A stretch of DNA of 9,434 nucleotides from Archangium sp. (lineage in GTDB: Bacteria > Myxococcota > Myxococcia > Myxococcales > Myxococcaceae). The notes beneath the pieces were generated by a model. The model ran no database searches and was not told where the DNA came from. It saw nothing but the letters and a program-made list of their open reading frames with translations. Made by a program: the position numbers and the translations under genes. The DNA lies in NCBI GenBank assembly GCA_016793585.1, contig JAEUJR010000126.1:1-9434 (forward strand), given 5' to 3'. Shown one piece after another: positions 1 to 9,434 of the stretch (within the stretch, counting starts at the first letter, position 1; each line of letters starts with the position of its first letter).

Positions 1-1581
1 GTACGAGAAGATCGTCGGGTTGTCGGGGTTGGGCGTGCCGTTGGCGGTGATGTTGATGAGGTTCGAGAGGCTCGTGTGCCAGGCGCTGGCCGACACCGTC
101 CACCCCTCGAGCGGCAGGCGATAGTCGACGGCGACGTTCACGGTGCCAGAGCGCTCGGGAATGAGGCCGGGGTTGCCGTCGACGCAGTAGCCGATGCCCG
201 TGTTGCAGAAGCGCAGGAAGAGCTCGTTGAACGAGGGCGGGCGGAAGCCGAGGCCCCACGCGGCGCGGAAGGTGAGCGAGGGGCCCGCGTCGATCTTGAA
301 CGCGAGGCGCGGAGACGGCGCGGCGCCGAACTGGCTGTCGATGTCGCCGCGCACGCCGGGCTCGAGCGCCAGCTTCACGGTGTCGGTCGCCGCGATCTGC
401 CACGAGTCCTGCACGAAGAAGCCGATGCGGCCGCGCTGCACGTAGTTCGACACCAGGCGCGAGCTCGACAGGTTCTCGGAGAGCACCTCGAGCCCGCCGC
501 TGACGAGGTGGTTGCCGAGCTTCTGATCGACCTGCGCGTAGCCCTCGAAGAGACGCGTGATGGTCTGCGTGTAGTCGTCGAGCTTTCGCGAGTTGCGCTG
601 ATCGAGCTGGAACTGGTCCTTGAAGAAGCCGAAGTGGCCGCGCACGGTGAGCGTGGTGTTGGTCGAGGTGAAGGTGTTGCGAACGCCCAGCCACTCGTCG
701 AGCTGCTCCGTGCGCTGCGCGCGGTTGAAGACGGCCCCGGTGTCGTTCTCGTCGACGGCGCGAAGGTCGGTCCACGCGTAGGCGGTGCGGCTCCAGGCGC
801 GCAGCGTGTCGCTGGGGTTCCACGAGACATCGACGTCGTAGTCGAGGCGGCGAATACCGGGCCCGTTGTCGGCGACGTTGTCGGGGTTGCGATCGAAGGG
901 GCTGCGGTGACGAAAGCCGGCTCCACCGCGCAGCTCGAAGGCGCCCAGCTTCGACGCCGCGTGCGCCCGAACGTCGGCCTCGGTGCCCACCGGCACGTCG
1001 TTGGAGCCGTTCTGAAACGCGCCGCCCATCGCGCGGAGCGAGAGCTCGAGCTGCCGCTGCGGCCGGCGGGTGATGAGGTTGATGACGCCACCGACGGCGT
1101 CGGCGCCATAGAGCGCAGCGGCGGGCCCCTTGACGATCTCGACGCGCTCGAGATCGCGCAGGCTGAAGCGGGTGACGTCGGTGATCGTTCCAGCGCGGCC
1201 GGCGATGCGCTGGCCGTCGACGAGCACGAGCACGTACTCGGGGTCGAGGCCCTGCAGGCGAATGCCGACGCCGCGGTTCGTGTAGACCATCTCGACGCCG
1301 GGGTGCTGCTGCAACAGCTGACCGAGATCGCGCACGCCGAGCTGTTCGATCTGCGTGCGGGTGATCACCTCGGTCGGCACCACGACGTCTTTCAACTTTC
1401 GCTCGGTGCGTGACCCGGTGACGACCGTCTGCATGCGCTTGTCGGGGTCTTCTTCGACGCCGGCATCGACGACGGCGACGACGCCTGCATCGTCGATCGG
1501 GATCAAGACTTCGGCGCTCGAGCCACCGTCGAGCAGCTCGGGCGCCTGGGAGAGAACGAGGAAGGCGACGGCGGAAATCAT
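1..1581 (-). CDS. TonB-dependent outer-membrane receptor (partial, C-terminus outside window)
   Basis: Probable outer-membrane beta-barrel receptor that imports a scarce ligand (siderophore, cobalamin or similar) using TonB-ExbBD energy; the ligand cannot be read from the sequence. The minus frame is open from the ATG at 1581 to the window edge (527 codons, no stop). Residues 1-13 are a short hydrophobic signal peptide (ISAVAFLVLSQA). Residues 29-46 form a DAG-type linker. A TonB-box-like stretch QTVVTGSRTER lies at 51-61. The plug domain follows at about 63-175, with the family signature ERVEIVKGPAAALYGADAVGG at about 145-165 and INLITRRP after it. Alternating aromatic/polar barrel strands fill the rest. 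The frame also contains two ATGs at 1620 and 1617, which would give a 13-residue longer N-terminus with an Arg; no convincing ribosome site favours either start. It follows the RecA-like gene by 140 bp on the same strand. The family is secure; the subfamily (BtuB/CirA/FepA-like) is inferred. Confidence 0.93.
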   Translation of the reverse strand, partial: MISAVAFLVLSQAPELLDGGSSAEVLIPIDDAGVVAVVDAGVEEDPDKRMQTVVTGSRTERKLKDVVVPTEVITRTQIEQLGVRDLGQLLQQHPGVEMVYTNRGVGIRLQGLDPEYVLVLVDGQRIAGRAGTITDVTRFSLRDLERVEIVKGPAAALYGADAVGGVINLITRRPQRQLELSLRAMGGAFQNGSNDVPVGTEADVRAHAASKLGAFELRGGAGFRHRSPFDRNPDNVADNGPGIRRLDYDVDVSWNPSDTLRAWSRTAYAWTDLRAVDENDTGAVFNRAQRTEQLDEWLGVRNTFTSTNTTLTVRGHFGFFKDQFQLDQRNSRKLDDYTQTITRLFEGYAQVDQKLGNHLVSGGLEVLSENLSSSRLVSNYVQRGRIGFFVQDSWQIAATDTVKLALEPGVRGDIDSQFGAAPSPRLAFKIDAGPSLTFRAAWGLGFRPPSFNELFLRFCNTGIGYCVDGNPGLIPERSGTVNVAVDYRLPLEGWTVSASAWHTSLSNLINITANGTPNPDNPTIFSY

Positions 1582-1721
1582 GTTGATTGTGTTAGCCGAG
1601 CAGATCGCCCGATCCATCATGGGTTTGTCAGACGGGTCGGCCGCTCCGGCAAAGGCTGCGCGGCTTGCGAGTCACCCCGGTTTCTCGCGACAAAACTGCG
1701 CGATCGAGCACTTCACGCGCG

Positions 1722-2774
1722 TCACCGAAACGATCGAACCTTCACGCGAGGCGCTGTCGGCGGCGAATTCGGCTTCGTTCGAACGGCGTCGATCGCGGCG
1801 AGATTGGCGGCCGGGCGTCTTCGATTTCCCGGCGGCGCGCACGAGTGGAGCGCGCTCTCGAGCCCGAGCGAGCCTTCGCGGCCGGGTCTGGTGGCGACGT
1901 GAAACCCCTGCCCGTCTCGCAGATCGTTCTTCTTCGGTCGTTGCAGTGACGAGAGCGACGAGAGGCGCGGCACCTCGAGACCGGGCACGAGCGCGGTGGC
2001 GCTGCGACGACTTCTCGTGAGGCGCGCGAGGCGGCTGCGAGGCAACACGAGCCGCTTCCCCGTCACGCCCTGTGCGCGCGCGAGCTCGACGTGCAGCTCG
2101 GGCTCGACCTGCGGCGCCTCGGGCAGCTCGGCGGTGACGACGCGAAGGTGCGGCCGGCCCTGCTGCGCGGCGACGGGCGCGGCGCGTGAGGCCATCACGA
2201 GGCGCACGAGGCCCTGCGCTGGAGCCACGTTCGCGGTGAGCACGAGCAGCAACGAGCCCCCTGCCCTCGCCGCGTCGAGCAGCTTCCTGGTGTCGAGCAT
2301 CGTCAGCTGCACGCCGGTGTGCGTGACGTCGAGCACCACGCAGGTGAACGCGCCGCTTCGGAGCAGCTGCACGGCCGACCACACGAGCTGGCCCGGCGCC
2401 GGCGGGCGAACGATCAACAGCCGCTGCAGATCGACGCCCATGGGCACGGCGGCCGGCGGGTAGAGCTCTTGCGGGCCATCGACCCACGCCGCGAGGCGCT
2501 TCTCACGACACGCCGACGCGACCAGCGACAACGCCACCGTCGTTCGCCCCGACGCCTCTTCGCCCGACAGCTCGACGGCGCCGCCGAGCTGGAACACGCC
2601 GAGCGCATCGAGCTCGGGCGCGCCCGTCGCCAACGTCACCAGGTACCGCCGGGGAGCGGCCTGCACGCGGCGGATCTGCTCCTTCAGGTGCTCGACCACC
2701 GAAGCGCGGCGCTGCTCGTCTCCCGAAAAACGCTCTGGAGCCGATTTACCGGCCTCTGCTGCGACGCTGACCAT
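1722..2774 (-). CDS. RecA-like ATPase-fold protein, ImuA/SulA-like, probably SOS-regulated
   Basis: A 350-residue protein with a RecA core, resembling the ImuA (SulA-like) group, which accompanies ImuB and DnaE2 in mutagenic translesion synthesis in many bacteria. An amphipathic N-terminus with a likely helix (VVEHLKEQIRRVQ, about 26-38) precedes the core. A P-loop-like GEEASGRT lies at 71-78, with Arg where RecA has the catalytic Lys. A Walker-B-like strand TCVVLDV lies at 144-150, and another hydrophobic strand SLLLVLTA at 174-181. The last 90 residues or so are basic, low in hydrophobics and not recognisable. The ATG at 2774 is chosen because GGAGG sits 5 bases upstream. Earlier in-frame ATGs at 2834 and 2807 lack a Shine-Dalgarno, and the frame upstream of 2774 runs through the probable LexA box. 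No imuB or dnaE2 is visible. The RecA fold is likely; the ImuA assignment is an inference from the pattern and could instead be an unnamed RecA paralogue. Confidence 0.75.
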   Translation of the reverse strand: MVSVAAEAGKSAPERFSGDEQRRASVVEHLKEQIRRVQAAPRRYLVTLATGAPELDALGVFQLGGAVELSGEEASGRTTVALSLVASACREKRLAAWVDGPQELYPPAAVPMGVDLQRLLIVRPPAPGQLVWSAVQLLRSGAFTCVVLDVTHTGVQLTMLDTRKLLDAARAGGSLLLVLTANVAPAQGLVRLVMASRAAPVAAQQGRPHLRVVTAELPEAPQVEPELHVELARAQGVTGKRLVLPRSRLARLTRSRRSATALVPGLEVPRLSSLSSLQRPKKNDLRDGQGFHVATRPGREGSLGLESALHSCAPPGNRRRPAANLAAIDAVRTKPNSPPTAPRVKVRSFR

Positions 2775-2779
2775 GGCGA

Positions 2780-2784
2780 CCTCC
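2780..2784 (-). promoter_or_regulatory. Shine-Dalgarno deciding the start of the RecA-like gene
   Basis: The minus strand reads GGAGG, then TCGCC, then ATG. The spacing of 5 bases is good and the core is perfect. This supports translation from 2774 rather than from the in-frame ATG at 2834, which would add 20 residues. Confidence 0.75.
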
Positions 2785-2798
2785 AACCGGGATCTCTT

Positions 2799-2815
2799 GC
2801 TGAACATGCATTCAG
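2799..2815 (-). promoter_or_regulatory. Probable LexA (SOS) box
   Basis: The minus strand reads CTGAATGCATGTTCAGC. The core has CTG-N10-CAG spacing. The whole site matches, as I remember it, all but two positions of the LexA-box consensus described for Myxococcus xanthus (CTRHAMRYBYGTTCAGS), including the full right half GTTCAGC. It lies 25 bases upstream of the preferred ATG of the RecA-like gene, where a repressor would block transcription or initiation. The location in front of a DNA-repair-type gene strengthens the call. The consensus is recalled, not looked up. Confidence 0.65.
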
Positions 2816-2938
2816 TATCAAGGAGGGCTGACATTCAGGTCGGCGCCAAACCCAACCCATTGAACTCACGGCGGTTCGAGTCGCAGACCTGCGTCGATGT
2901 CCCATGGGCTACGGTGCTTCGAGTCTTTGGGGGGCTCC

Positions 2939-4951
2939 GTGAAATCGAACTCCTTCTCTGTCGCCACGGTCGTGGTCTGCGCGCTGTTCTTCGGCTGTCC
3001 CCCGCAGTCTGGGCCGAGCGGCCAGTGTTGTGAGCCGCCGCTCCGGTACAACGCCGCAACCGACTCGTGCGAGTGCACCGCCGACGCGAGCGTGACGACG
3101 TGCGCGCCGGGAAGAACGTTCGACGCCACCTCGTGCGCCTGCAAGTGCGCCGCGTGTCCCGCGCCGCAGGTGATCGGCAACTCCGAGACGTGCGCGTGCG
3201 TGTGCCCGAACGCGCCGAACGATCTCACGCGCGCGTGCGTCGGCTTCCCCTCGTCGTACACCTTCAACCCGACCACCTGTCAGTGCGAGTGCCCGGCGAA
3301 GCAGTGCACGGCACCGTTCGTCTTCAACGCGCAACGCTGCGCGTGCGAGTGCCCGACATGCCCGGCGCCGCAGACGTTGATCGACCCGCTCACCTGCGCC
3401 TGTGGCTGTGTGTCGCCCGATGGGGGAGCGCGCACGTGCGGTGCCAATCAGGTGCTCGACCCCATGACCTGCAAGTGCGGCTGCGGCACGACGTGCGCCC
3501 CCGGACAGGTTCAGGACCCGAACACGTGCGCATGCAGCTGCCCCATCACCGGCGCGAACGCCTGCGCGAGCTACCCGGCGGGCTACACGCTCAATCCAAC
3601 GACCTGTCAGTGCGAGTGCTCGGGCCTCACGTGCGCGACGCCGAAGATCGCCGACCCCCAGACCTGCAGCTGCAAGTGCCCTTCGACGTGCGCGGGCAAT
3701 CAGGTGCAAGACCCGAACACCTGCGCCTGCCGCTGCCCCAACCAACCGCTGGGCGGAAACGCCTGCACGGGCTACCCGGCGGGCTACACGTTCAATCCCA
3801 CGACCTGTCAGTGCGAGTGCTCGGGCCTCACCTGCGCGACGCCGAAGATCGCCGACCCCCAGACCTGCAGCTGCAAGTGCCCTTCGACGCAGTGCACGGG
3901 CAACCAGGTGCAGGATCCCGCGACGTGTGGCTGCCGCTGTCCAGCTTCACAGTGCCCCGCCGGCTTCACGCAGAACCCGACCACCTGCGGTTGTGAGTGC
4001 ACCGGTTTGTCGTGCCAGCAACCGCGCGTCGCGAACCTTCAGGCCTGCCGCTGCGACTGCCCTGCCGCTCAATGCCCGGCCAACCAGATTCAAGACCCGA
4101 ACACCTGCGCGTGTCGCTGCTCGAACCAGCTCCCGGGCGTGAACCCGTGCGCGAACTTCCCGCCGGGCTTCACGTTCGACCCCGCGAGCTGTCAGTGCAG
4201 GTGCACCGCGCTCACCTGCGTGCCGCCGCGCATCGCCGACACCACCTCGTGCAGTTGCAAGTGCCCGCCCGTGCAGTGCGCAGGCAATCAGGTTCAGGAT
4301 CCCGCGACGTGTGGCTGCCGCTGCCCGGCCCTGCAGTGCCCGGCGGGCTTTTCCCAGAACCCGACGACCTGCGGCTGTGAGTGCACCGGGCTCTCGTGTC
4401 AGCAGCCGCTCGTCGCCAACACGCAGGCCTGCCGCTGCGAGTGCCCCTCGACGCAGTGCCCGATGAACCAGATTCAAGATCCCACCACGTGCGCGTGCCG
4501 CTGCTCGAACCAGCAGCCGGGCGTGAACCCGTGCGCGGCCTACCCGCCAGGCTTCACGTTCGATCCCACCACCTGCCAGTGCAAGTGCACCGCCGGAGCC
4601 TGTCTGCAGCCCCGCGTACGCAACACCCTCACGTGTTCATGTGACTGTCCTTCGTGTCCTTCGGGGCAGGTGCTGACGAACCCGCAGACCTGTGCCTGTC
4701 AGTGCCTGCCGGTGCAGTGCGGCCCGGGGAAGAGCCAGAACCCACAGACGTGCGCGTGCGAGTGCAACCTTCCTTCTGGGCAATGCCCGCCGCCACGGCA
4801 GGTGAATCAGCAGACGTGCGCGTGCGAATGCCCTACGTGCCCAGGAGCGCAGGTGTCGAACCCGCAGACCTGTGCCTGTGCGTGTCCGGGGCCGGTGGTG
4901 CAGTGCCAGCCTCCGCAGACGTGGAACGCCCTTCAGTGCAAGTGCCTGTGA
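2939..4951 (+). CDS. Cysteine-rich lipoprotein with about 30 CXCXC (Balbiani ring 3/VEGF-C-like) repeats
   Basis: A 670-residue exported protein of unknown function. I chose the GTG at 2939 because it gives a textbook lipoprotein signal: Lys2, a hydrophobic run, then the lipobox LFFGC with lipidated Cys20. A G-rich stretch (2929-2934) stands in as a weak ribosome site. The in-frame ATG at 2897 would bury the signal behind 14 polar residues. From about residue 30 to the end, the protein is some 30 units of the form C-x(10-13)-C-x-C-x-C, such as CAPGQVQDPNTCACSC and CGPGKSQNPQTCACEC, joined by 1-12 residue linkers. About 120 of the 670 residues are Cys. The spacing fits the Pfam CXCXC repeat seen in Chironomus Balbiani ring 3 protein and the VEGF-C tail. 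No catalytic domain is present. The pro-after-Cys position is compatible with outer-membrane sorting. It is probably co-transcribed with the next gene, 8 bases downstream. Homology to the animal proteins, as opposed to convergence, is unproven. Confidence 0.9.
   Translation: MKSNSFSVATVVVCALFFGCPPQSGPSGQCCEPPLRYNAATDSCECTADASVTTCAPGRTFDATSCACKCAACPAPQVIGNSETCACVCPNAPNDLTRACVGFPSSYTFNPTTCQCECPAKQCTAPFVFNAQRCACECPTCPAPQTLIDPLTCACGCVSPDGGARTCGANQVLDPMTCKCGCGTTCAPGQVQDPNTCACSCPITGANACASYPAGYTLNPTTCQCECSGLTCATPKIADPQTCSCKCPSTCAGNQVQDPNTCACRCPNQPLGGNACTGYPAGYTFNPTTCQCECSGLTCATPKIADPQTCSCKCPSTQCTGNQVQDPATCGCRCPASQCPAGFTQNPTTCGCECTGLSCQQPRVANLQACRCDCPAAQCPANQIQDPNTCACRCSNQLPGVNPCANFPPGFTFDPASCQCRCTALTCVPPRIADTTSCSCKCPPVQCAGNQVQDPATCGCRCPALQCPAGFSQNPTTCGCECTGLSCQQPLVANTQACRCECPSTQCPMNQIQDPTTCACRCSNQQPGVNPCAAYPPGFTFDPTTCQCKCTAGACLQPRVRNTLTCSCDCPSCPSGQVLTNPQTCACQCLPVQCGPGKSQNPQTCACECNLPSGQCPPPRQVNQQTCACECPTCPGAQVSNPQTCACACPGPVVQCQPPQTWNALQCKCL
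3563..3952 (+). repeat. Adjacent three-unit duplication, about 201 nt period
   Basis: Units 9-11 (3563-3763) and units 12-14 (3764-3952) are tandem copies. Over the first 126 nt (3563-3688 against 3764-3889) I count five mismatches by eye, so this is a recent duplication. The copies diverge after that, with a one-codon insertion (Gln) in the second. Confidence 0.85.
3893..4654 (+). repeat. Six-unit superrepeat, 384 nt period
   Basis: Units 14-19 (3893-4276) and units 20-25 (4277-4654) align in order. Paired phrases include GNQVQDPATCGCRCPA, FxQNPTTCGCECTGLSCQQP, NQIQDPxTCACRCSNQ and PPGFTFDPxxCQC. Divergence is greater than in the 201-nt pair, so this is an older block duplication. Confidence 0.8.
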
Positions 4952-4954
4952 GGA
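4950..4954 (+). promoter_or_regulatory. Shine-Dalgarno of the GCC2/GCC3-like gene, overlapping the upstream stop
   Basis: GAGGA overlaps the TGA stop (4949-4951) of the lipoprotein gene and lies 5 bases before the ATG at 4960. This arrangement is typical of translationally coupled operon genes. It supports the 4960 start over an in-frame ATG at 4654, which lies deep inside the lipoprotein gene. Confidence 0.75.
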
Positions 4955-4959
4955 ACGGA

Positions 4960-7812
4960 ATGCTCCGCGTGGCTGGTGTGGCGGTGGTGCTGATGAGCTC
5001 GGCGGCGCTCGCGCAGACGTGTCCCGCAGGGCAGTACCTGGCTGGGCCGGGGTGCGCGCCATGTCGTGCGGGCCGCTACTGCCCGGGGAACGATCTCGAG
5101 GTGAGCTGCGCGGCAGGAACCTGGAGTTCGGCCATCGGTGCCGACTCGGCGGCCGCGTGTGTCGCCTGCGCGGCGGGAACCTTCAGCGAGACGACGGGAG
5201 CGACGTCGGCTGCCACCTGCGTTCCCTGCGGGGCTGGGCGGTACAGCGCCGTGACGGGGCTCGGGTCGGCAGCAGGCTGCAGCGAATGCCCGGCTGGAAC
5301 GTGGAGTTCGACCATCGGAGCGACTTCTGCGGCCACGTGCTCGGCGTGTGGGCCGGGAACATTCGGCACGACCACTGGCGCGACCTCGGCGGCGGCGTGC
5401 ACGGCCTGTCTGCCAGGAACCTTCAGCGCGGCGGTCGGAGCCTCGTCGAGCGCGACCTGCTCGGCCTGCTCGCCGGGAACGTTCAGCACCACGCCAGGCG
5501 CCACGTCAGCGGCAGCGTGCACGCCATGTGGCCCGGGAACGTATGGAACGGCGAGCGGTGCGAGCTCACCGGCTGCGTGCACTGCGTGCGCAGCTGGCAC
5601 GTACAGCGCGGCGATCGGCGCGACGTCGGCTGCGACCTGCACTGCGTGTGCAGCCGGCACGTACGGAGCCACGAGCGGCGCGACCTCGGCGGCTGCGTGC
5701 ACCGCATGCGCGGCCGGCACGTACAGCACGGCGACCGGCGCGACCTCGGCAGCGACCTGCACTCCGTGTGGCGCGGGCACCTACGGAGCTACGAGCGGCG
5801 CAACCTCGGCCGCAGCGTGCACGGCGTGCTCGGCAGGCACCTACAGTTCCGCGATCGGCGCGACCTCGGCTGCGACGTGTACCAACTGCGCTCCGGGAAC
5901 GTTCAGCACCACGCCCGGCGCGACTTCGGTCTCGACCTGCACCGCGTGTGGCCCGGGCACGTATGGAACGACCAGCGGCGCGAGTTCGGCATCAGCGTGT
6001 ACGAGGTGCGCAGCAGGCACCTTCAGCACGGCGACCGGCGCGAGCTCGGTCGCGACCTGCACGCCGTGCTCAGCGGGAACATACTCACCGACCACCGGCG
6101 CGGGGTCGGCATCAGCCTGTACCCAGTGCGCCGCTGGCACCTACAGCTCCGCGATCGGCGCGAGTTCGGCCGCGACCTGTACGAGCTGCGCTCCTGGAAC
6201 GTTCAGCACCACCCCCGGCGCAACGTCCGCTTCGACCTGTGTCGCCTGCGGCGCGGGAACGTACGGAACCACGAGCGGCGCGTCGGCGTGTACCGCCTGC
6301 CAACCAGGCACCTGGAGCACGACGATCGGTGCCACGTCAGCGGCGACGTGTACTGCGTGCGCGCCTGGCACCTGGAGCAACTCCGCCGCAGCGACGTCGG
6401 CGTCGACCTGTACGCCCTGCGTCGCCGGAACCTTCAGCGCCACCGCCGGCGCAAGCTCGTCTTCTGCATGTACGAGCTGTGCACCCGGCACCTGGAGCAG
6501 CGCCGTCGGCGCGACCTCTGCGGCCACCTGCACTGCGTGCGGCGCGGGAACGTTCAGCACCACGAGCGGCGCGACCAGTCAGACGGCCTGCACGCCCTGC
6601 GCAGCGGGAACGTACAGCGCCACCACCGGAGCTCCCTCGAGCGCGACCTGCCTCGCGTGCCCCGCCGGTCGTTTCAGCGCGTCGATCGGAGCGACCTCAG
6701 CATCGGCCTGCACGACGTGTCCCGCCGGGACCTGGAGCAGCGCGCTCGGCGCAGCCTCAGCCACGGCCTGCACTCCGTGTGGCGCTGGCACCTGGAGCTC
6801 GACCGCTGGCGCCGTCTCGGATGCCACCTGCCTACCCTGCGGAGCCGGAACGTTCAGCCCGGCGACCGGCGCGACATCGTCAGCCGCGTGCACAGCGTGC
6901 CCGGAGGGTCGCTTCAGCGCCACGCTCGGCGCGACCTCGGCGATGGCGTGTCAGCCCTGCCCTGCCGGCACCCAGAACGCGACGACTGGCGCGACCTCGA
7001 GCGCGGCGTGCATCGCTTGTCCGCCCGGAACCACTTCGGCGGCCGGAGCAACCGCGTGCTCGAGCTGTCAGGTCGGAACCTTCTCGGCCACCGCGCAGAG
7101 CCCTGACTGCACGCCGTGCGCGATCGGCACTGCGACGAACACGGTCGGCTCGACGAGCTGCGCTGCGTGTTTGCCCGGCACCTCGGCCCCGATGCAGGGG
7201 CAGAACGTGTGCGCTCCGTGTGCTGGCGGGACGGCATCGTTCGATGGAGGCACCTGCCAGCCGTGCGCAGCAGGCCTCTTCTCGATGCCGGGCTCGAGTC
7301 TGTGCCTGCTCTGCCCGCCTGGAACGGCCTCGGCTGCGTCAGCGAGCGTGTGCGTGGCGTGCGCGGCGGGAACGTTCGCAGCCGACGCTGGCTCGACGAT
7401 GTGCTCTTCGTGTGGAAGCTGCGACGACGACGACTCGTGCACGAACGATCGATGTGACGGCGTCGTGGGCTGCGTTCACGAGACGATCGTCGGCTGCGCG
7501 CGCGACGCTGGAGTCGGGGACGCGGGAAGCGATGCAGGCATGCTCAGCGATGCAGGCGTGTTCAGCGATGCAGGCGCGCTCAGCGATGCAGGCGCGCTCA
7601 GCGATGCAGGCGTGTTCAGCGATGCAGGAGCCGCCGATGCCGGCATCATGCTCGACGCAGGGACTCTCGTCTCCGACGCAGGAACCTCGACACCTGAGCC
7701 GCCGCAAGGCTGTGGCTGCCGCTCCGACGGTGGTGGGCTGATGTTGCTCGCCTTGCTGATGCTCGCGTGGGCTCAGCGATTGAGATCGACGAGTTCGAAC
7801 CGCTCGACCTGA
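4960..7812 (+). CDS. Surface protein with 32 GCC2/GCC3-like 20-residue repeats, DAG linker and MYXO-CTERM tail
   Basis: A 950-residue exported protein with no recognised enzymatic domain. A Sec signal peptide spans 1-18 (ends AALA, then Gln-Thr). A Cys-rich lead-in covers 19-50. Residues 51-687 are 32 units of consensus aGT[YFW]S-x3-GATSAATCTxC, all 20 residues long except one of 17 (431-447). Residues 688-818 are eight shorter degenerate units. Residues 821-846 (CDDDDSCTNDRCDG...GCVH...GC) resemble a Dicty_CTDC motif. A DAG linker covers 849-908, then GCGC at 917-920, a hydrophobic run LMLLALLMLAWA, and a basic tail QRLR: a MYXO-CTERM sorting signal, expected to be processed by myxosortase for surface display. 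The repeat resembles Pfam GCC2_GCC3 (ephrin-receptor-like). The protein has no lysine at all and very few charged residues in the array. The last 40 nt overlap the 3' end of the opposite-strand gene. It is probably an operon partner of the CXCXC lipoprotein. Confidence 0.92.
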   Translation: MLRVAGVAVVLMSSAALAQTCPAGQYLAGPGCAPCRAGRYCPGNDLEVSCAAGTWSSAIGADSAAACVACAAGTFSETTGATSAATCVPCGAGRYSAVTGLGSAAGCSECPAGTWSSTIGATSAATCSACGPGTFGTTTGATSAAACTACLPGTFSAAVGASSSATCSACSPGTFSTTPGATSAAACTPCGPGTYGTASGASSPAACTACAAGTYSAAIGATSAATCTACAAGTYGATSGATSAAACTACAAGTYSTATGATSAATCTPCGAGTYGATSGATSAAACTACSAGTYSSAIGATSAATCTNCAPGTFSTTPGATSVSTCTACGPGTYGTTSGASSASACTRCAAGTFSTATGASSVATCTPCSAGTYSPTTGAGSASACTQCAAGTYSSAIGASSAATCTSCAPGTFSTTPGATSASTCVACGAGTYGTTSGASACTACQPGTWSTTIGATSAATCTACAPGTWSNSAAATSASTCTPCVAGTFSATAGASSSSACTSCAPGTWSSAVGATSAATCTACGAGTFSTTSGATSQTACTPCAAGTYSATTGAPSSATCLACPAGRFSASIGATSASACTTCPAGTWSSALGAASATACTPCGAGTWSSTAGAVSDATCLPCGAGTFSPATGATSSAACTACPEGRFSATLGATSAMACQPCPAGTQNATTGATSSAACIACPPGTTSAAGATACSSCQVGTFSATAQSPDCTPCAIGTATNTVGSTSCAACLPGTSAPMQGQNVCAPCAGGTASFDGGTCQPCAAGLFSMPGSSLCLLCPPGTASAASASVCVACAAGTFAADAGSTMCSSCGSCDDDDSCTNDRCDGVVGCVHETIVGCARDAGVGDAGSDAGMLSDAGVFSDAGALSDAGALSDAGVFSDAGAADAGIMLDAGTLVSDAGTSTPEPPQGCGCRSDGGGLMLLALLMLAWAQRLRSTSSNRST
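5110..7020 (+). repeat. 60-nt phase-locked in-gene repeat array, 32 units
   Basis: Nineteen exact 60-nt periods (5110-6249), one 51-nt unit (6250-6300) and twelve more 60-nt periods (6301-7020) encode the GCC2/GCC3-like units. Each ends with Cys-x-x-Cys. Units 13-15 reappear as units 18-20, 300 nt later, showing block duplication above the basic unit. Units 7-8 also resemble units 14-15. Eight degenerate units of 15-17 codons continue to 7413. Confidence 0.93.
7531..7628 (+). repeat. 18-nt tandem repeat encoding the DAG linker
   Basis: Five 18-nt copies plus a partial sixth, each gatgcaggc followed by a variable codon and ttc/ctc agc, encode (Asp-Ala-Gly-x-Phe/Leu-Ser). The copies differ at only a few positions, so the tract is likely length-variable by slippage. 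It forms the flexible linker between the Dicty_CTDC-like motif and the MYXO-CTERM anchor. Confidence 0.9.
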
Positions 7813-8264
7813 TGCAACGATCTCGACGGGAGCTTGTCAGTCGTCACCACCATTCGGAACGGGCCGGCGGTGTCGGGCAGTGGCTTGCCATCCACCTCCC
7901 ACACGATCAGCGCCTGGGTCGCGCCCAGCGTCTCGAGCAGCTCGCCGACCGCGAAGACCGCCTTGAAGCCGTCTCGCGCCGTCGCGACGATCGCCGAGCG
8001 CAAGCCTGCGTGTTTCTGCTTCGGGTCGGCCTTCGGGCCCGTGACGCCCTCCGAGAACCCGCGCGCGAGCAGCAGCTTGTCGAGGCGAACGCCCTTCACC
8101 CGATGTGACCCCTTCTTGTCGGTCCAATCGGCGGTGATGGGTCCCAGCGCTTCGAGCTCAGCGAGCGTGATGGGGCCTGACCGAATGAGCGTTCCGTCGA
8201 GTGACAGGGGCGCGACACCGCCGTCAGAGCCGGTGAGCACGATTACCGTGATGATGGAGAGCAT
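7773..8264 (-). CDS. Small protein resembling the oxidoreductase molybdopterin-binding fold, lacking cysteine
   Basis: A 163-residue protein. Several features match the pattern of short proteins in the Oxidored_molyb (sulfite-oxidase-like) family: VKGVRLDKLLLARG at about 57-69, ARDGFKAVFAVGELL at 96-110, IVWEVDGKPLPDTAGPFRMVV at 120-140 and VERFELVDL at 153-161. The catalytic members bind molybdenum through a conserved Cys; this protein has no Cys at all, so it is unlikely to be a normal Mo enzyme and may only keep the fold. The start at 8264 is the first possible one, since an in-frame TGA lies just upstream. The N-terminus (MLSIITVIVLTGSDG) is a short hydrophobic leader, a weak signal-peptide candidate. 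The gene begins 41 nt inside the upstream gene and its 3' end overlaps the opposite-strand repeat gene by 40 nt. The family call is by pattern recognition only. Confidence 0.75.
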   Translation of the reverse strand: MLSIITVIVLTGSDGGVAPLSLDGTLIRSGPITLAELEALGPITADWTDKKGSHRVKGVRLDKLLLARGFSEGVTGPKADPKQKHAGLRSAIVATARDGFKAVFAVGELLETLGATQALIVWEVDGKPLPDTAGPFRMVVTTDKLPSRSLHQVERFELVDLNR

Positions 8265-9434
8265 GGGACGAGCTCAAGCGACGCGCGCGACGTGCAGCAA
8301 GCAACATCGACAGCGCCAGCACCACGCTCGACGGCTCGACGATCGAACACCCGCAGCCCTTCGGAGCCTCGACCTGCGTCATTCCCGCATCGACAGTCGT
8401 GAGCACGCCCGCATCGGCCTCGACGACCCCAGCATCGCCTGGCCCCGCGTCCGAGCGGACGCCCGCATCGAAGTCCACCAGCTCGACACCTGCATCGATC
8501 TCGACACCGGCGTCGATCTCTCCAGCGTCGTAGCCGCCATCATCGTCATTCGGACGAACACCGGCATCTGACGGAACGACGATCGCGTTCGCCCACAGCC
8601 TCGCGTCGAGGAAGAGATCGCTCGAGGTGAGCGCGGTGTTGTGCACCTCGATGGCGAGGAAGTTGTCGCCCGGGCGCAGCAGCGACTCCGCGCCGACGAG
8701 ATCGAACACCTGCGCCACCCCCGACTCGTGCGCCGCTGCGAGCGTGGTGCGGGTCTGGTTCGCAGCCACACCACGGCGCGCGATCTCCTGGCCGTTCAAG
8801 AACGCCACGAAGCCATCGTCGAAGTCGATCTCGAGCGTCAGCCCACGCACGAGGGTGGGATCGACGAAGAGATCGAACTCGGCGCGCGTGTACAGCGTCG
8901 CGTTCTGGCCCATGGCCACGGTCGTGGCGATGGTGGGTTCTCCGTAGCCGATGGGCTGACGGCCGAGCGACCACAACGAGTCGTCGAAGGTGAAGCCGTT
9001 CCACGCAGCAGGCTGCGCCGTCGAGCCGACCCGATAGCGCAGCGGGGTGAGGCGATTCACGAACAACAACCCGCCATCGGGAGCCGCTGGTGTTCCCGCG
9101 TCGATCACGCCCGCATCGAAGGGCACGCCGCTGACCGTGTATGTGGCCGTGCCTGACGCGAGCGTGTTCGCAGGCATGGCGCGATCGGCGATCATCGACG
9201 CCGTCAGCGTGTGCGCTCCCGGAGCGTGCGCTGCCGTCGTGAGTCGAACCGTGCGCTGATCGCTCTGCAGCTGCGCGGCGGTGATCGCGACCGACGAAGT
9301 CCACGCCGCGAGCCGCTCGGCCCCCAACGCTCCCGTACCCGCCTGCACTGGCTCGTTGAACACTGCCTCGAGCGACGTCGAAGTCAGCGCGCGCGCGGCC
9401 ACCAGCTTCGGGGCCAGCGTGTCGGCGCCCTTCA
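8224..9434 (-). CDS. MYXO-CTERM surface protein with SbsA-like Ig domain and beta-sandwich domain (5' end outside window)
   Basis: The frame is open from the window edge to the stop at 8224-8226, giving 402 visible residues; the N-terminus is missing. Visible residues 4-102 (DTLAPKLVAARALTSTSLEA, VFNEPV, ... TATYTVSG) resemble a bacterial SbsA-type Ig-like domain, often found beside lamin-tail domains in secreted proteins. Residues about 122-284 (LYTRAEFDLF, TLEIDFDDGFVAFLNGQEIAR, GDNFLAIEVHNT) look like a galactose-binding-type beta-sandwich common in extracellular multidomain proteins. Residues 289-350 are a DAG-rich acidic linker. GCGC at 359-362, the hydrophobic run VVLALSMLLAA, and RRARR at 381-385 form a MYXO-CTERM signal. 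An unusual 17-residue tail (LSSSHALHHHGNRAHRL) follows the arginines, encoded in the overlap with the next gene. A GTG at 9402 is not the true start, because the Ig domain already begins before it. A structural or adhesive surface role is an inference. Confidence 0.88.
   Translation of the reverse strand, partial: KGADTLAPKLVAARALTSTSLEAVFNEPVQAGTGALGAERLAAWTSSVAITAAQLQSDQRTVRLTTAAHAPGAHTLTASMIADRAMPANTLASGTATYTVSGVPFDAGVIDAGTPAAPDGGLLFVNRLTPLRYRVGSTAQPAAWNGFTFDDSLWSLGRQPIGYGEPTIATTVAMGQNATLYTRAEFDLFVDPTLVRGLTLEIDFDDGFVAFLNGQEIARRGVAANQTRTTLAAAHESGVAQVFDLVGAESLLRPGDNFLAIEVHNTALTSSDLFLDARLWANAIVVPSDAGVRPNDDDGGYDAGEIDAGVEIDAGVELVDFDAGVRSDAGPGDAGVVEADAGVLTTVDAGMTQVEAPKGCGCSIVEPSSVVLALSMLLAARRARRLSSSHALHHHGNRAHRL

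Follow-up and report, generated by a model that had tools for sequence, protein, structure and literature searches.

Known cysteine-repeat systems and the Archangium locus

The origin of the animal silk-homology module (BR3P, for Balbiani ring 3 protein) is stated to be unknown in one account, which also describes the matrix retention of VEGF-C (PMC5816233). According to a second account, sponges have BR3P or BR3P-like proteins, and the domain's history may be impossible to deduce (PMC10328876). The heparin-binding domain of VEGF is described as a pair of beta subdomains, each containing two disulphides (PMC3568127), and MBP1 of Acanthamoeba is described as likewise carrying CXCXC repeats (PMC9692275). 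In M. xanthus, MYXO-CTERM is reported to direct proteins to the cell surface (PMC11980579), and TraA is presented as a MYXO-CTERM-tagged surface receptor whose cysteine-rich repeats are proposed to form a rigid stalk (PMC3325183). Our literature searches on these repeats, covering titles and abstract openings, returned no paper on bacterial proteins with CXCXC or BR3P repeats. Here we describe a predicted bacterial lipoprotein that consists largely of such repeats, together with its neighbouring gene. Both are encoded in a window of 9,434 nucleotides from Archangium sp. (assembly GCA_016793585.1, contig JAEUJR010000126.1, positions 1–9,434, forward strand).

The repeat array and its register

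The features of the lipoprotein gene are the following.

2939..4951, + strand: lipoprotein with CXCXC repeats (BR3P / silk-homology type), 670 amino acids from a GTG start, with 28 complete and 2 partial units
2939..2998, + strand: predicted signal peptide of a lipoprotein, lipobox LFFGC, with residue 20 as the cysteine for lipidation
3026..3076, + strand: first micro-domain in the cysteine parse (Cys 30, 31, 44 and 46), opening with two adjacent cysteines
3101..3142, + strand: second micro-domain in the cysteine parse, with three cysteines only (55, 66 and 68), identical in the ortholog
3293..3820, + strand: PF03128-rich stretch, 56.2 bits over 8 stretches, with a weak PF14554 match of 17.1 bits, below the cut-off of 40
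3881..4648, + strand: two tandem six-unit (128-amino-acid) super-repeats, 78% identical, the first one modelled with a predicted local distance difference test score (pLDDT) of 83.6
4883..4951, + strand: last micro-domain, ending in ...CKCL-stop with no cysteine beyond the C-x-C

The initial annotation, made from the DNA letters alone, claimed about 30 consecutive units of the form C-x(10-13)-C-x-C-x-C in a protein made almost entirely of this repeat. We find 28 complete units with an incomplete unit at either end, the array covers 89% of the lipoprotein length, and the unit quoted there as an example, CAPGQVQDPNTCACSC, is located in the protein. The first spacer is x10 in 20 of the complete units, x11 in 3 and x13 in 5. 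The product contains 121 cysteines, 18.4% of the residues of the mature chain, its isoelectric point (pI) is 5.2, neutral to acidic, and a family-library scan found no domain in it besides the CXCXC repeats. In 2000 shuffles of the whole protein the mean was 0.19 units and no shuffle had more than 3, against the 28 observed; a chance or low-complexity cysteine pattern is ruled out by these shuffles together with the cysteine-fixed shuffles and column permutations given below.

The cysteines of the window protein, and equally those of its ortholog in an Archangiaceae metagenome-assembled genome (L001), parse without remainder into micro-domains of the form [last Cys of preceding CxCxC]-x(0-10)-C-x(10-13)-C-x-C. 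Successive micro-domains are joined by one residue, starting with the second micro-domain. One unpaired thiol, Cys 66, is predicted in the second micro-domain and likewise in the ortholog, and one might guess that it could cross-link chains. Higher-order duplications are evident in the DNA, the longest with 79.5% identity across 557 columns.

The initial annotation also placed the repeats behind a lipobox. LFFGC ending at residue 20 fits a PS51257-like pattern, and Cys 20 and Lys 2 agree with the rule for lipoproteins (cysteine at 15–35, basic residue near the N-terminus). The string ALFFGCPPQ is identical in the ortholog, though the first 14 residues show 7 differences. These features suggest that the window protein is lipidated.

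An alternative in-frame ATG is found at 2897, upstream of the GTG start; the GTG start is supported because the L001 ortholog is 1 base shorter directly upstream of it (upstream strings compared by eye). The gene has a G+C content at third codon positions (GC3) of 0.857. Compared with the ortholog, dN is 0.041 and dS 0.337 (NG86), and a pseudogene or non-coding frame is ruled out by the dN/dS of about 0.12 and by the retention of 120 of the 121 cysteines, the lost one being located in the signal peptide.

Family match beyond the cysteine spacing

The PF03128 (CXCXC) profile, proposed as a check in the initial annotation, matches multiple stretches of the protein and scores 35.3 bits against the whole of it (E 1.1e-8, cut-off 15). 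Five of five cysteine-fixed shuffles of segment 3293-3820 were without a PF03128 match at E <= 10. Segment 3881-4648 (256 amino acids) alone gave 10.7 bits, below the cut-off of 15, and its cysteine-fixed shuffles were unmatched in 6/6 cases. The profile of the VEGF heparin-binding domain, PF14554, reached 16.9 bits with the whole protein (E 0.0064), under its cut-off of 40.

A position table was made from the 20 x10 units, with only non-cysteine positions scored. It fits the units of 14/14 groups of relatives above all within-unit shuffles (0/2000 each), including the "balbiani ring protein 3-like" proteins of a sponge (P0026) and a brine shrimp (P0023); the relatives are not an independent sample because the search chain leading to them began from the window protein. 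With the bacterial-only profile of the next section, 200 random reorderings of the columns never reached the real score on any of four targets (0/200 each). For VEGF-A the real score was 25.9 bits against a permuted maximum of 15.5, and for the sponge protein 33.0 against 25.4. The margin is thin for the other two, the Artemia protein (20.9 against 20.4) and P0028 (19.3 against 18.8). Judged from these sequence comparisons, the family match exceeds what the cysteine spacing alone provides. The PF03128 score, the permutations and the VEGF-A/B profile matches described next support the CXCXC family interpretation, and the facts and the family given in the initial annotation were right.

Solved structures and models

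A bacterial-only profile was built from 28 two-unit pieces of the window protein and its ortholog and searched against 177,635 distinct PDB sequences. It gave four matches at E <= 10, all of them C-terminal domains of VEGF-A/B (best 1kmx_A, E 2.1e-4), and no other cysteine-rich family was among them. A 14-row version gave three matches, 3/3 to VEGF-A with E 3.9e-4 to 7.8e-4. Of two permuted profiles, each with one fixed reordering of the ten inter-cysteine columns, one had no matches and the other found VEGF-A at E 0.11 and 0.73. When animal rows were included, four of five matches were to the same VEGF family and the fifth to a resistin-like protein. Searched alone against the PDB, the sequence of the window protein did not retrieve VEGF, and the TGF-beta2 match in that search (E 0.022) is considered chance. 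The sponge protein P0026 alone had one match, the VEGF-A tail at E 0.66. By these profile searches the VEGF-A/B tail is the sole detectable solved relative.

The AlphaFold2 model of the first six-unit super-repeat consists of hairpins. By VIA comparison the VEGF-A tail was the top match for both models. Foldseek with the six-unit model gave 66 matches at E <= 10 and none at E <= 0.001; among the best 50 of the 66 the VEGF-A tail ranks 16, 20 and 27, after receptors of the EGF, TNFR and LRP types.

Ortholog and distribution

The back-translation search returned a single genome contig, that of L001. Its ortholog is 91.8% identical across 670 aligned residues and has 65 additional residues that correspond to three units, so that it carries 31 complete units against 28 in the window protein. 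Repeats may be collapsed during assembly, and these unit numbers are those of the assembled sequences. At E <= 1e-6 the whole protein was matched in only one of 195 genomes of the phylum, that of the ortholog itself. PF03128 was found in 36/195 genomes at E <= 1 and in 31/195 over the cut-off, and the stretches examined at 19 PF03128 loci from other genomes contain between 0 and 8 complete units each. At one locus (L014, G186:C75:115600) the CXCXC match lies in an open frame of 25,598 amino acids, which could encode a giant protein or else be an open repeat frame of great length.

The protein search was limited to proteins 0.55 to 1.75 times the query length, and very long arrays such as BR3 could therefore not appear. 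It found 21 relatives at E <= 0.001, with a precomputed PF03128 assignment on 12/21. The relatives P0002–P0022 have 4–19 units each, with repeats over 9–58% of their length, and several carry TSP3, TadE or other regions besides the CXCXC units. P0015 is named as a protein of a Deltaproteobacteria metagenome-assembled genome, and P0005 and P0019 appear animal-like by eye. P0014 and P0021 have a TadE-like N-terminus (PF07811, re-detected in P0014) followed by 12 CXCXC-type units each.

The partner gene and its neighbourhood

A second gene for a cysteine-rich repeat protein follows the lipoprotein gene, and the other genes noted in the window are on the opposite strand.

4960..7812, + strand: partner gene, 8 bases downstream and co-directional, with a signal peptide (by eye), PF07699 repeats and a MYXO-CTERM tail
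1-1671, - strand: putative TonB-dependent receptor (by eye), running off the window start, at the same position in L001
1722-2834, - strand: RecA/ImuA-like protein (NF033429 56.5 bits, below the cut-off of 150; PF00154 48.7, over the cut-off of 27), the gene divergent from the lipoprotein gene and 96.5% identical in L001
7773-8264, - strand: small protein, PF00174 molybdopterin oxidoreductase 24.9 bits, barely over the cut-off of 24
8224-9402, - strand: second protein whose tail resembles MYXO-CTERM (15.3 bits with TIGR03901, under the cut-off of 20), no Pfam domain at E <= 1

The partner contains cysteine-rich repeats of PF07699 (Ephrin_rec_like; 25 stretches, E 3.2e-69). Its last 70 amino acids score 21.9 bits with TIGR03901 (MYXO-CTERM; cut-off 20), and a scan of the complete partner at E <= 1 did not list TIGR03901. 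The order lipoprotein-partner is conserved in L001, and 64/64 aligned partner cysteines are retained. The window copy of the partner is about 257 internal residues longer than that of L001 (L001 10217-12136; counted by eye on the alignment), and since the partner also differs in length, copy number varies in both neighbouring repeat genes. PF07699 occurs at E <= 1e-5 in 19/195 genomes of the phylum. It occurs together with PF03128 in five (G001, G110, G113, G157 and G183), about 3.5 being expected by chance, and among the matches listed both families are on one contig only in G001. A phylum-wide operon linkage is thus unsupported.

Proposed function and alternatives

We favour, with a probability of about 60%, a disulphide-rich lipoprotein rod that is tethered to the outer membrane and forms, with the MYXO-CTERM-anchored partner, a coat, a stalk or a matrix layer at the cell surface. 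The protein would be exported and then lipidated at its N-terminus, and its cysteines should oxidise to two disulphides per micro-domain. As single residues join the micro-domains, the chain is expected to extend as an elongated, protease-resistant rod held at the outer membrane via its N-terminal lipid. It would probably be produced from the operon-like gene pair together with the second cysteine-rich repeat protein, anchored at the opposite end by its MYXO-CTERM tag, and the pair might serve in cell contact or adhesion and not as an enzyme or growth factor. A coat, stalk or matrix role is suggested because no other domain was found and because of the roles of the animal relatives (silk; matrix retention of VEGF-C). 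Heparin-like binding is disfavoured by the neutral to acidic composition, and a growth-factor reading is ruled out since no PDGF/VEGF cystine-knot domain was among the family matches of the window protein at E <= 1.

The lipoprotein might instead face the periplasm as a structural or redox protein without surface exposure. N-terminal lipidation alone is uninformative on the side of the outer membrane, but the product of the neighbouring gene has a tag for surface sorting and a rod of 30 micro-domains would presumably be long for the periplasm, and we regard this location as unlikely. Metal binding of the metallothionein type through reduced CxCxC thiols would agree with the high cysteine content of the mature chain; the export signal to an oxidising compartment, the cysteine parse in fours, the conserved non-cysteine turn residues and the hairpin model make it highly improbable.

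The likeness to the animal proteins could also have arisen by convergence, with bacteria and animals arriving separately at small disulphide hairpins that have a D/N-P-x-T-C turn, since few short sequences fold in this way. The units are only 16 residues long, many of the common positions adjoin the CxCxC, one permuted profile shows that the cysteine spacing alone can give VEGF-A scores of up to 15.6 bits, and the Artemia and P0028 margins are thin. Convergence is nevertheless rather doubtful in view of the wide margins for VEGF-A and the sponge protein, the one-residue register between micro-domains that matches the VEGF-A tail, and the absence of other cysteine-rich families among the matches of the bacterial-only profile. 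If a myxobacterial lineage had recently acquired a BR3P-like gene from an animal or a protist, this would account for the whole-protein match in a single genome of the phylum, and similar animal proteins exist. The high GC3, the bacterial lipoprotein signal, the existence of CXCXC proteins whose domain partners differ (one from the Deltaproteobacteria) and the PF03128 matches over the cut-off elsewhere in the phylum speak against it, and we consider it improbable.

A more far-reaching and tentative proposal is that the silk-homology module is an extracellular building block of bacterial type, and this near-pure lipoprotein array an extreme case of it, with a descent common to animals and amoebae; the bacterial protein might then form "silk-like" rods on the surface, lipid-anchored and disulphide-linked, with a MYXO-CTERM-anchored cysteine-rich rod as their partner. 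At 16 residues the units are too short for a tree to tell the direction of descent. A near-pure bacterial array with a close ortholog offers a clean reference for the question of the module's origin, and a simple recombinant system for solving how long silk-homology arrays fold and how their disulphides pair. The myxobacteria gain an adjacent pair of cysteine-rich repeat genes, of which the first encodes a lipid signal at the N-terminus and the second a surface tag at the C-terminus. Beyond the family assignment, the match exceeding the spacing, the VEGF-A/B tail as relative, the register, the difference in copy number to the ortholog and the partner gene are what this analysis adds to the initial annotation.

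Comparison with known systems

The TraA-type receptor of Myxococcus, as described, has cysteine-rich tandem repeats and MYXO-CTERM in common with the partner gene (PMC3325183). The TraA family has PA14, whereas the repeats of the partner match PF07699, and PA14 was not among the matches for the lipoprotein or the partner at E <= 1. The TIGR04201 cysteine-rich repeats were not listed for either gene in the whole-protein scan that also missed TIGR03901.

Other CXCXC proteins (e.g. P0002, P0004 and P0015) are arrays of the same unit as the window protein, with fewer units over a smaller part of their length, whereas the window protein carries 28, and no further domain was found in it. The silk-homology region of VEGF-C/D and the heparin-binding domain of VEGF-A/B (PF14554; 1kmx, 1vgh, 2vgh, 4deq, 10ri and 2vwe) represent the sole PDB family matched by the bacterial-only profile. 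The VEGF-A tail has the same micro-domain register with a one-residue joint, and its end, ...TCRCD, is likewise without further cysteine after the C-x-C, as in the last micro-domain of the window protein; the tail is very basic and has 2 micro-domains, in contrast to 30 and a pI of 5.2. BR3P and the BR3-like animal proteins (P0026 of Amphimedon and P0023 of Artemia) share with the window protein both the C-x10-C-x-C-x-C arrays and the preferred non-cysteine residues. The window protein differs from the BR3-like animal proteins in being bacterial, in its predicted lipid anchor, and in an array that makes up 89% of its length as compared to 41% in P0026 and P0023.
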